From: Candidatus Woesearchaeota archaeon
GTDB lineage: Archaea; Nanobdellota; Nanobdellia; SCGC-AAA011-G17; UBA489
Direction of reading: 5' to 3'
NCBI GenBank assembly: GCA_030679025.1
Contig: JAUXTV010000157.1
Coordinates: forward strand, 1 to 11,736
Length of the DNA stretch: 11,736 nucleotides
The position numbers were made by a program, and so were the translations under genes. A model generated the notes under the pieces. That model made no database searches. It had not been told where the DNA came from and was given only the letters and a program-made list of their open reading frames with translations. Positions within the stretch are counted from its first letter, which is position 1. Every line of letters starts with the position of its first letter. Of this stretch, positions 8,464 to 11,517 are shown in pieces.

Positions 8464-9137
8464 TCTGAAGAAGTGGTCTCATCTGGATTTTCTGTAGGTA
8501 AAGATTCTTGTTGGGGAGTTTCAGGAGCTATTGATGATTGCTGTTCTATAGGTGGAGATGATTCAGGAATAGAAGCTTGTGGAGTCGATTCGGGTGCTGC
8601 TGTTGGTTGAGTTTCGCTTGCAGCTGGTTGATTTTGCAAAGATTCGGGAATCTTAATGTTCTTGAATTGCTCCTTGACTTCTTCTGCAGCAGTGTCAAAA
8701 TAATTATAAAATTGGGGAGTTAATTTAATTAATCTGCTTCTTCCTTGTTTTTCAGTGACAATCAAATTTTGTTCCTTTAAAATCTTAATATGATCATAAG
8801 CTTTGTTGCCTCGAATTTTAATAATTTCATGTTGTAAGACTGGTTGTTTGTAAGCAATCACAGCTAAAGTTTTAGTAGTTGGAGAATCCATCTCAGAATC
8901 AGCCATAAGTTTGTTTGCTAAATAACCGTAATCTTTTTTGATGTTCAGCTTAACCATGTCATCTTGATGAACTAAAGTTAAAGCACTATCGCGTTGTTCA
9001 TAATCTTTTTTTAATTCTTCTAGAAGATCTTTAACATAACCGACAGATCCTATTTCGCATACTTTTGCAATCTCTTCAAGACCCATAAAGCGTCCTGTCG
9101 TGAACAAAATTGCTTCCACTTTGTGTTTATCACTCAT
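8460..9137 (-). CDS. scpB: ScpB, SMC-kleisin complex winged-helix subunit, with disordered tail
   Basis: 225 aa. Residues 3-160 are ScpB: the first winged helix begins KVEAILFTTGRFMGLEEIA, and the signature TLAVIAYKQPVLQHEIIKIRG lies at 90-110 (two short pieces quoted as one motif region). The second winged helix ends at about 141. ScpB dimers clamp the kleisin ScpA and help SMC condense and segregate chromosomes. Residues 165-225 form a low-complexity tail of P, S, E, Q and T, probably disordered. ScpB usually neighbours ScpA, which is absent here; instead the ATG sits inside the end of aRF1 (ATGAGTGA, 8-nt overlap), so translation is probably coupled to termination of aRF1. Confidence 0.93.
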   Translation of the reverse strand: MSDKHKVEAILFTTGRFMGLEEIAKVCEIGSVGYVKDLLEELKKDYEQRDSALTLVHQDDMVKLNIKKDYGYLANKLMADSEMDSPTTKTLAVIAYKQPVLQHEIIKIRGNKAYDHIKILKEQNLIVTEKQGRSRLIKLTPQFYNYFDTAAEEVKEQFKNIKIPESLQNQPAASETQPTAAPESTPQASIPESSPPIEQQSSIAPETPQQESLPTENPDETTSSD

Positions 9138-10623
9138 AGTTGCCTACAGCAAAACGCAGAATAGCTGCTATACCGCCTAAATCACGTAATTGCTGTCCCT
9201 CTTGTGTATCTACAGATATTAATTGTAAAGCTGTTCCAGTAGATTGTGCCAAAGTTTCAATCTCTTGCATCTTTTTATCGTCATAATCTTCAGAAATAAG
9301 TACAAGTTCTACAGCGCCCAATTCTAAAACACGTCGCACTTCTTTTTCTCCATAGGTGGCTTTGTTAGGCTCTTTTGCGAGAAGAGTGAAAAACCTTTCC
9401 ATCACTTTCTTCTCTGCGATGATGCCTTCCTTTTGCAGGATGTCTGCGCTTTTTTCGACTAGATGATGCAATCCGCTTTCATCTGTATAGGTGAGATCCT
9501 GCACTGCTAGGATCTTCTTCTTCAATTCATTATTTAAATATTGCTGAAACTCTTCTTTCGTCGGTCCAGGTCCACCTAGGAGAATGCCTTTCAGGTTTTT
9601 CAAAGGTAAAAATTCTTTATTGCATAATTCTGATACTCGTTTGAAGAACTCAATAGCCATTCCGTGGATCAAACGTTCGAAACGCTGTGCTGAGTTATGA
9701 ACAAGAACGCCATTCGCGAAAAAGTTCCGGTGTTGCGTTGCTATATCAATGAGTTCAAAATTGCCTTTTTTCCTGTCTATAGATTTTATTCTTACTTTAT
9801 TTAATTGATGGTCAACTAAAAAGTCAGTCTTATGTAGTTGATCTGCTGTTTTTTCTTTAATGCCTTCTTTGTCATGAACAAAAAATGTATGATCTTTCGA
9901 AGCTAATAGTTTAGAATCTAAAAAAAATACTTCAATCATGTCATCTTTCGTTACTTTCCATGTGTCTAAACAAACAGAATGTTCTATCTTACCGGTTGTT
10001 CTATTGAATGAAAGAGGCTTATCACCGACACGAACATCTTTTATCGCTATAAGTTTTTCTCCTACAGATAACAATGTTTGAGGATGAAGACACTGACCAC
10101 CAGCTTTGAATTTACCAGGAACACCAGAGGTTAAATCTGTAAGTAAAGTAATCGAAGATCCTTTTAACAAACCAAGAGTAGCTTCACGTCTATCCACTAA
10201 AATAAGACCATAGACTTCTTTATGTTCCATCATATCTTCTAAAACGTCTATGACAAATCGCTGATCACAGCGGTAAAGACGCATATTCAAAGGTTCAGGA
10301 GGCTCAATACTCCAGATTTTGATGTCTACTTTCCCTTCTTGTGCCGCGACATTGCCGGCAAAAATAGCTAAGCCATGAACAGGAGTCTTCTTGAATAAGC
10401 GCAAATGACGAACACAGCGTTCCAAAGAGTCAATAACGTTGCCTCGAGTCTTCGCGTCTTTGATATTCTTCGCGGTACCTTGCTCTTCCTGTAAGTGACC
10501 TATAATTTTGTTCAAGTCATATCCAGCGGGAACATACACGGAAACAAGTTCTGTATGCCTTCCACGAATGTTTTTCAGTTCATTGATGAAACGCTTGAGT
10601 TCCTGTTTCTTGGCGATATCCAT
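9130..10623 (-). CDS. prf1: Peptide chain release factor aRF1 interrupted by a mini-intein
   Basis: Precursor of 497 aa; 364 aa after removing the intein (residues 178-310). aRF1 recognises all stop codons and triggers peptide release in the ribosome. Domain 1 (about 1-130) has GTAKNIKD at 49-56 and Y117-x-C119-x3-F123, corresponding to the TASNIKS and YxCxxxF stop-codon contacts of eRF1; D56 replaces the usual Ser of NIKS. Domain 2 carries the catalytic GGQ at 175-177 in GKFKAGGQ, followed after the intein by SAQRFERL. Domain 3 starts about 345 (LLGGPGPTKEEF) and ends GGIAAILRF. It is short: the zinc-binding minidomain expected between LISEDYDDK (about 442) and LQLISVDTQEG (467) is missing, explaining 364 rather than about 410-420 residues. 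TATA at 10646-10653 predicts a leaderless mRNA. Confidence 0.95.
   Translation of the reverse strand: MDIAKKQELKRFINELKNIRGRHTELVSVYVPAGYDLNKIIGHLQEEQGTAKNIKDAKTRGNVIDSLERCVRHLRLFKKTPVHGLAIFAGNVAAQEGKVDIKIWSIEPPEPLNMRLYRCDQRFVIDVLEDMMEHKEVYGLILVDRREATLGLLKGSSITLLTDLTSGVPGKFKAGGQCLHPQTLLSVGEKLIAIKDVRVGDKPLSFNRTTGKIEHSVCLDTWKVTKDDMIEVFFLDSKLLASKDHTFFVHDKEGIKEKTADQLHKTDFLVDHQLNKVRIKSIDRKKGNFELIDIATQHRNFFANGVLVHNSAQRFERLIHGMAIEFFKRVSELCNKEFLPLKNLKGILLGGPGPTKEEFQQYLNNELKKKILAVQDLTYTDESGLHHLVEKSADILQKEGIIAEKKVMERFFTLLAKEPNKATYGEKEVRRVLELGAVELVLISEDYDDKKMQEIETLAQSTGTALQLISVDTQEGQQLRDLGGIAAILRFAVGNYE
9694..10092 (-). mobile_element. Mini-intein (133 aa) inserted at GGQ/SAQ of aRF1
   Basis: Aligning aRF1 to the universal GGQSA sequence shows an in-frame insertion beginning at C178 and ending at N310, with native S311 as the +1 residue. 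Block A is CLHPQTLLSVGEKLIAI followed by VRVGDKPLSF. A block-B-like segment is LLASKDHTFFV, with H245 as the conserved histidine and Ser in place of the common Thr of TxxH. Blocks F/G are HRNFFANGVLVHN, with penultimate H309 and terminal N310. All chemistry for class 1 splicing (Cys1, block B His, HN, +1 Ser) is present. Only about 37 residues separate the B and F regions, with no LAGLIDADG or HNH motif, so the homing endonuclease is absent and it is probably fixed rather than mobile. Ends are exact to the residue. Confidence 0.93.
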
Positions 10624-10737: not shown

Positions 10738-11517
10738 TCAGTCTTTAATTTTTCTTTTAGAAAAAAATTCTCTCAACTTTTTTATGTTGAAAATATCAAT
10801 TTTAATACCTAATTTTTTAATAAGCTGCCTAGCTTTTTGTTCACCGCCTACGTAGTCAAAAATTTTATTTACATTTCTTTTAAATCTCCATTTTTCTAGG
10901 TTAGGTAATTGTTCTAGTAATAATCGTACTTCTCTCGTTATAGGGGGTTTGAATCCGACGGAGACAAAACGTAAACATGCAAAAAGATTTCCTGGATGAG
11001 CTTTATACCCTGTGATAGTTAAGCGTAGTTGTCTATTTTTTAAATCTTTCAATGCGCTTGGAAGAGCAATCAAATTCTTTCGGATATTTTTATCGAGGTA
11101 ATCAGTAAGAGGTATAGCAAACCCATTAATTGTAAAAGCAGAATTTTCTTTTAAATTTTGCAGAACATTTGATTTATGGCTTCGATGAATATCTAAAACT
11201 AGATAATCGGTAATTGATTTAGGCTTAGAGACTAACTTCTTCTTTAATACGATTTCATTTTTTCTGCGAATTTTTCCATAAACAAATTTATAACTTCTGA
11301 GATCCTTAACAAATTTGTCTGAATCTCCAATAAACAGGAGGTCATAATCTCTTTGAGGAAGTGATTTTTTGAACAGGTCATAATAAATAGCATTTCGAGC
11401 TGCTCCCCCAATAACATAAACTTTAGTTTTACGAGGAATACATAATATAACCTCTTTCAAAATTTCTGCTATTTTGCCATCTCTGGTAAAAACTCTTGTA
11501 TTGTTATTTAAGTGCAT
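10738..11517 (-). CDS. Class II CCA-adding/poly(A) polymerase head-like nucleotidyltransferase
   Basis: 259 aa. VYVIGGAARNAI (33-44) matches the GG-x2-RN/D entry of class II tRNA nucleotidyltransferases. QRDYDLLFIGD follows with the metal ligands D57 and D59. D109 in LVLDIHRS may be the third. Later family landmarks appear in order: NSAFTINGFAIPL (125-137; usual form RRDFTINALA), ALKDLKNRQLRL (155-166; usual LxDL...LR) and HPGNLFACLRFVSV (174-187; usual P.R.LRA.RF). The C-terminal two-thirds of a full CCA enzyme is reduced to about 70 residues. Archaea normally use the unrelated class I CCA enzyme, so this is either horizontally acquired or an archaeal paralogue with another substrate. Whether it is active, and on what RNA or metabolite, is unknown. 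It has its own TATA box at 11541-11550. Confidence 0.75.
   Translation of the reverse strand: MHLNNNTRVFTRDGKIAEILKEVILCIPRKTKVYVIGGAARNAIYYDLFKKSLPQRDYDLLFIGDSDKFVKDLRSYKFVYGKIRRKNEIVLKKKLVSKPKSITDYLVLDIHRSHKSNVLQNLKENSAFTINGFAIPLTDYLDKNIRKNLIALPSALKDLKNRQLRLTITGYKAHPGNLFACLRFVSVGFKPPITREVRLLLEQLPNLEKWRFKRNVNKIFDYVGGEQKARQLIKKLGIKIDIFNIKKLREFFSKRKIKD

Follow-up and report, generated by a model that had tools for sequence, protein, structure and literature searches.

A release factor gene that regulates itself is known from bacteria, where RF2 is made by frameshifting. The class-1 release factor of Mimivirus is likewise made via a special step in its own expression (abstract of PMC3521657). 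Both of these systems recode a stop codon during translation, whereas in the archaeal release factor aRF1 described here the special step would be protein splicing. Among inteins, the class 1 mini-inteins of solved structure (gp41-1, Spl DnaX, Npu DnaB and Pho RadA) share with the present insert the Hint fold, Cys1, the block B His, the block F Asp, the final His-Asn and the approximate size, while host protein and insertion site are different, block B reads SxxH instead of TxxH and the +1 residue is Ser. Archaeal homing inteins of the LAGLIDADG type find their likeness in longer alleles at the same aRF1 site; the copy under study differs from them in having no endonuclease and one longer allele (P0026) in having an additional HTH_3 domain. 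Conditional inteins such as that of Pyrococcus RadA (excerpts of PMC10663303, which also outline class 1 splicing, and of PMC8987985) resemble the present one in being mini-inteins placed in the active site of an essential protein of an archaeon; they are distinguished by the known dependence of their splicing on conditions.

The stretch of DNA analysed (11,736 nucleotides from a Candidatus Woesearchaeota archaeon, referred to as the window) contains an open frame, 10623-9130 on the reverse strand, encoding an aRF1 of 497 aa that scores 395.8 bits against TIGR03676 (cut-off 234.7). Its translation contains the motifs NIKD, YRCDQRF and GGQ, corresponding to NIKx, YxCxxxF and GGQ of the a/eRF1 class-1 release factors. 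The parts of the gene are given below, with residue frequencies taken from a comparison set of 107 mini-inteins and 86 longer, endonuclease-type forms (n=193), for which HN at the insert end was a selection criterion.

10093..10623, reverse strand: aRF1 N-extein, residues 1-177, ending GKFKAGGQ (Q177); TIGR03676 positions 2-174, eRF1_1 domain
10093-10101, reverse strand: GGQ codons, end of the N-extein
9694..10092, reverse strand: mini-intein, residues 178-310, 133 aa (C...HN), calculated mass 15.28 kDa; Intein_splicing, intein_Cterm and fold matches
10090..10092, reverse strand: Cys1, predicted first nucleophile, immediately after the GGQ Gln, read from the translation; Cys in 107/107 minis and 86/86 endonuclease forms
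9970..9972, reverse strand: Cys41 (C218 of the protein), not conserved; Cys in 36/107 minis and 0/86 endonuclease forms
9889..9900, reverse strand: block B, Ser65-Lys-Asp-His68 (SKDH, usually TxxH); His in 193/193, Ser in 190/193
9745..9747, reverse strand: block F Asp116; Asp in 193/193
9694..9699, reverse strand: His132-Asn133, intein end, read from the translation; 193/193, as selected
9130..9693, reverse strand: aRF1 C-extein including the TGA stop, beginning with Ser+1 (S311, 9691-9693) in SAQRFE; TIGR03676 positions 174-319 and 359-402, eRF1_2 and eRF1_3 domains

A mini-intein between GGQ and SAQ had been proposed in an earlier note and the proposal agrees with the analysis down to the nucleotide: the 133 residues run from Cys1, directly after Q177, to HN, directly before the native Ser, and profiles exceed their cut-offs on the segment. 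Pfam Intein_splicing (PF14890) reached 39.7 bits on the segment alone (cut-off 35.8), though 31.7 bits, below the cut-off, on the whole protein, and TIGR01443 intein_Cterm reached 17.1 bits (cut-off 15.6). In the profile search of the genome the aRF1 model matched in three pieces (positions 2-174, 174-319 and 359-402), and since the flanks of the insert abut at model position 174 no aRF1 sequence has been replaced. All class 1 residues (Cys1, His68, Asp116, His132-Asn133 and Ser+1) are present in the segment, Cys1, the block B His, the block F Asp and His-Asn being invariant throughout the comparison set, and the SxxH of block B, shared with 190 of the 193 forms, appears to be a conservative variant of TxxH. 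No endonuclease domain was matched by Pfam or TIGRFAM profiles within the 133 aa. A structure model of the precursor (pLDDT 87.7, pTM 0.46, 75 sequences) gave fold matches in the PDB to aRF1/eRF1 (4af1, 3agk) and to inteins; residues 172-174, just before GGQ, have pLDDT <50 and the junction geometry of the model is therefore unreliable.

Very probably, then, the segment represents a class 1 mini-intein that splices in cis, and its host is the one class-1 release factor that the genome was found to encode; splicing of the protein is strongly inferred. In the standard class 1 scheme, Cys1 would after translation attack the carbonyl of Q177 (acyl shift), Ser+1 would take over the N-extein (transesterification) and Asn133, aided by His132, would cyclise, giving mature aRF1 with the sequence GGQSAQ and a free intein of 15.3 kDa, while the precursor still containing the intein would be an inactive release factor. 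Archaeal HemK-type methyltransferases (TIGR00537) have relatives that methylate the Gln of GGQ, and one such gene is present in the genome (143.9 bits); presumably the enzyme could act on this Gln solely after splicing.

The window belongs to a draft genome of 1.07 Mb in 233 contigs, 83% complete with 3.9% contamination. The earlier note had regarded aRF1 as the factor on which all release in the cell depends, and this stands insofar as it is the sole class-1 factor found in a genome of that completeness, the other family match being pelota (260.9 bits to TIGR00111). No second intein of the family was found in the genome, where the sole other match to the intein model scored 13.7 bits. The neighbours of aRF1 are ordinary archaeal genes, PCNA, TFS, RpoL and ScpB. 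The end of aRF1, with its TGA stop, and the start of scpB share 8 nt (window 9130-9137, ATGAGTGA), an arrangement in which translation of scpB may be coupled to termination at aRF1's own stop codon. At 10738-11517 on the reverse strand lies a frame of 259 aa with a C-terminal region without Pfam match; by eye it resembles the head of a nucleotidyltransferase or CCA-adding enzyme (GGAARN, DYDLL). No RNA family reached its gathering threshold in the window.

A protein search gave 6405 matches, and among the best 120, the window counted in, 105 have an insert at this same GGQ/SAQ bond and 15 are empty, so that insertion at this bond is not due to chance; a search for aRF1 with insertions after GGQ had been advised in the earlier note. 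The inserts comprise those of 104 GGQ homologues and of P0121 (GGW). For the 104, an insert was recognised by a residue other than Ser after GGQ and a subsequent HN[SCT], neither Cys1 nor Ser+1 being demanded; both residues are nevertheless present in 104/104 and none failed the HN criterion. Insert lengths fall at 128-138, 421-438 and 470-509 aa, and in the two long homologues scanned with Pfam, P0014 (795 aa) contains LAGLIDADG_3 and P0026 (868 aa) HTH_3 and LAGLIDADG_3, which supplies endonuclease-bearing alleles at the site, for which the earlier note had advised looking. The independent homologue P0003, 89% identical, carries an insert of identical length, 133 aa. In G002, of the same genus as the window, the site is empty (...GGACAG|AGTGCA...) and the extein 94% identical, and all five other genomes of the family with a clear aRF1 (G003, G005, G006 and G007 besides G002) are empty. 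The insert is in frame, and G002 and other empty genes provide exact alleles without it.

The homologue P0017 is already named 'peptide subunit release factor 1 (eRF1)/intein/homing endonuclease' in its source, and inteins at this site are thus visible to annotation pipelines. In the portions of the open full-text literature (PMC) covered no description of an aRF1 intein was found, in line with the earlier note, which treated no intein at this site as well described; the term 'release factor' is absent from the excerpts of PMC5784728 (on eukaryotic inteins), as is 'eRF', and from those of PMC10663303.

When analysing 279 genomes of the phylum, aRF1 was found interrupted at the GGQ bond in 45, by a mini-intein in 17 and by an endonuclease-sized insert in 28, the latter classed by size, with Pfam run on the two long homologues and G105 and G195 incomplete. 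The remainder consists of 211 uninterrupted genes (tallied by hand on the best E-values in the phylum search) and 23 unclassified genomes (6 with a fragment or frameshift, 12 with weak hits only and 5 without match); 68 empty genes, not all of them belonging to the 279 genomes, were read at the DNA level. At least 67 of 79 named loci encode aRF1 with the insert at this site, three of them showing the C-terminal half only, and 12 belong to other hosts or are unresolved. The record titles of the 67 name Woesearchaeota, Pacearchaeota, Nanoarchaeota or just 'archaeon', and among the matches listed also Aenigmatarchaeota (L029, L033, L043, L058, L069), Diapherotrites/Iainarchaeota (L022, L030, L040, L047, L052, L055, L061, L070) and Micrarchaeota (L074, L082), while one title reads Falkowbacteria (L079), which we take for a mis-binned contig. 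The family therefore appears to span several DPANN groups, at least those in the matches listed.

Two candidates for a split intein were rejected: in G195, where the aRF1 halves lie on two contigs, the pieces reach the contig ends, and in G105, with two frames, undetermined letters lie between them. In two draft genomes the aRF1 frame is broken, just after GGQ in L159 (G206) and before GGQ in L160 (G175), by sequencing error or real decay. L221, L224, L213 and L078 have Hint-domain frames with K, S or T after the HN, several in series in L078, L221 and L224; these look like repetitive Hint proteins and not inteins.

GGQ is termed universal in e/aRF1 in excerpts of PMC2613156, and excerpts of PMC6514570 describe other members of the superfamily without the Gln. 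Among 187 aRF1 homologues, with or without intein, the catalytic Gln is replaced in 27 (GGW) and 8 (GGF), the loci including L026, L029, L150 (G035), L151 (G046), L166 (G249) and L134 (G009). With the Gln column masked, 38 of 40 GGW/GGF rows fell in one clade of 55 rows that also contains 17 GGQ rows, L029 and G009 being placed outside it; P0185 (GGF) is counted among the 187 and absent from this tree. The variants mark a clade of Woesearchaeota and call the universality of the catalytic Gln into question. G035, G046, G249 and G009 have one eRF1_2 gene each. The methyltransferase TIGR00537, for which the Gln of GGQ is the expected target, is below its cut-off in 3/3 GGW genomes (G035, G046 and G249, which belong to one family and are not independent counts) against 1/16 GGQ genomes (G024), and barely above it in the GGF genome G009 (87.4, cut-off 87).

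The evolution of the insert was followed with trees that were all quick (SH-aLRT only) or made with FastTree. In the extein tree (115 rows, after removal of 15 duplicates and omission of 5 short rows) the insert states are interspersed, with 38 changes against a shuffled mean of 60.3, and sister rows may be of unlike state: the window (G000, mini) and G002 (empty), G024 (empty) and G039 (longer), G057 (empty) and L046 (longer). In two intein trees the minis and the longer forms stand mostly apart, with weak deep support; the minis show 4 label changes against 28.7 when shuffled in one tree and 3 against 68 in the other, values that, as far as the weak deep support allows, speak against many separate endonuclease losses. 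The window's intein is placed among the endonuclease group in one tree and among the minis in the other. The Spearman correlation between intein and extein distances is 0.583 among minis (n=107) and 0.232 among longer forms (n=80), two differently sampled sets, and 0/500 permutations reached either value; minis thus seem to track host descent better than endonuclease forms do. For the pair G267-G295 the dS of the longer intein (0.107) is below that of the extein (0.385), so this intein is younger than its host, a signature of homing. The mini-inteins of the window's relatives are under purifying selection, with dN/dS of 0.19-0.26 against 0.044-0.064 for the exteins, taken from five pairs that involve six f4-clade genomes (NG86); the ranges exclude L008-L025 (intein dN/dS 0.070 at a dS of 2.7, with a saturated extein) and G023-G049, in which the intein was saturated in dS. 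G002, the one relative of the window with DNA available, is empty.

The phylum search also revealed frames of 132-134 codons near aRF1 in G057, G029 and G041 that match the intein model, and a database search gave 11 free-standing Hint proteins, all 131 aa long except one of 146. The genes near aRF1 are the following.

L086, 1966-2358, forward strand: free-standing dead Hint gene near aRF1
L087, 3296-3688, forward strand: free-standing dead Hint gene near aRF1
L088 (G041), 2032-1640, reverse strand: free-standing dead Hint gene, full copy, near aRF1
L046, 5148-5540, forward strand: free-standing dead Hint gene near aRF1

In all 11 proteins Cys1 has become Ala and the block B His has become Gln, and the final His-Asn is replaced as well (Glu at the Asn position, or Asp in P0123, which runs on), and with all of these residues lost they are catalytically dead. 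An AlphaFold model shows the Hint fold (pLDDT 82.4), its best PDB matches being BIL domains (2lwy; 6tmm and 6y75 from Tetrahymena) and inteins; the aRF1-derived proteins differ from BIL domains in standing alone and in having no catalytic residue at all. Nevertheless the genes are under purifying selection, with dN/dS of 0.13-0.32 (six pairs, four genomes; NG86). The 11 proteins form one clade (support 100) adjoining nine f4-clade mini-inteins (82; 78 in a second tree). When 22 Hint domains from other hosts were added they stayed within the aRF1-intein set (96), and an AU test holding aRF1 inteins and free-standing proteins together did not reject this grouping (p-AU 0.936). Clade position, dead residues and selection combine to indicate that a Hint domain moved out of aRF1 and has been retained although it no longer has catalytic activity.

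The hosts make up one genus-level clade, and in all four of its genomes examined the free-standing gene lies near an aRF1 that is either empty or carries an endonuclease intein. The distance from the end of aRF1 to its start is 45 nt in G057, where aRF1 is empty, 41 nt in L046, where aRF1 has a longer intein, and 1.7 kb in G029, while in G041 a piece of 38 aa, 92% identical, lies just after aRF1 (L088, 6775-6662, reverse strand) and the full copy about 5 kb further on, separated from the remnant by other genes, as if a mobile segment had been inserted, duplicating the gene start. A HAD hydrolase gene follows the free-standing gene in G057, and a gene similar by eye stands beside the full copy in G041. 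Position and conservation suggest that the free-standing copies have a role related to aRF1. That the host recruited the Hint domain for a role around aRF1 outliving splicing is a speculative and rather unlikely extension; in its boldest form the free-standing protein would bind domain 2 and the GGQ region of aRF1 in trans and tune release, and mini-inteins such as that in the window would do the same in cis before they splice.

The alternatives to a functional, inherited mini-intein differ in how they account for these observations. A draft assembly of 233 contigs with 3.9% contamination leaves room for an artefact or a contaminating contig, but the same 133-aa insert in the independent homologue P0003 and the ordinary archaeal neighbours make this extremely improbable. 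Decay of the intein, with a broken gene or a release factor bearing a permanent insert, would fit the SxxH of block B, splicing being a prediction from sequence; it is nonetheless very improbable, as every residue needed for splicing is intact, SxxH is normal for the family (190/193), the inteins of relatives are under purifying selection and an unspliced precursor would keep 133 residues in the loop for peptidyl-tRNA hydrolysis, in the one aRF1 that was found. A regulated switch, in which splicing answers redox state (through Cys1 and C218), temperature or ribosome state and gates termination throughout the cell, extends a suggestion of the earlier note, which named splicing rate, temperature and redox state. 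Other inteins are known to splice conditionally (excerpts of PMC10663303 and PMC8987985), no class-1 release factor besides the host was found, minis follow host descent more closely than endonuclease forms (0.583 against 0.232) and a dead relative has been retained beside aRF1, but redox control calls for a conserved Cys that can trap Cys1, and C218 is Cys in 36/107 minis and 0/86 endonuclease forms, so that this part of the suggestion finds no support as a family trait. Related genomes, including G002 of the same genus, lack the intein, which shows that a gate of this kind is not a general requirement. We therefore consider the switch improbable and global gating of termination possible but unsupported; splicing need merely be fast compared with the turnover of aRF1. 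The feedback loop also proposed, translation of aRF1 requiring spliced aRF1, is logically sound, though only as an inference.

How the window came by its intein is a separate matter, and recent acquisition from another lineage, in place of descent within the family, is a tentative reading that we hold to be somewhat less probable than its opposite. The closeness of the window's intein to that of P0005 (distance 0.52, extein 0.57), unlike P0007 (0.93, extein 0.45), hints at transfer, as does its grouping with P0003 and P0005 (support 99), and the other five family genomes with a clear aRF1 are empty; recurrent loss would, however, account equally well for empty alleles, the intein has no endonuclease, and its GC content (0.326) is near that of the window (0.341), the extein being higher (0.407). 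A cis-splicing mini-intein, however acquired, remains the preferred reading. It represents one lineage of a site-specific allelic family across DPANN archaea, in which the endonuclease-bearing members (LAGLIDADG, some with HTH) are still horizontally mobile and the mini members have lost mobility and follow host descent more closely, the conserved and function-critical site accounting for both targeting and slow loss.

Each completed protein needs a class-1 release factor, and the insert in aRF1 would place protein splicing upstream of translation termination, so that nature here offers a case in which gating of a core process by an intein can be put to the test. Should the free-standing dead copies be confirmed, they would show an intein that has become an ordinary host protein. 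With empty, mini, homing and free-standing states found within one archaeal class, gain, loss, homing and domestication may here be compared directly.
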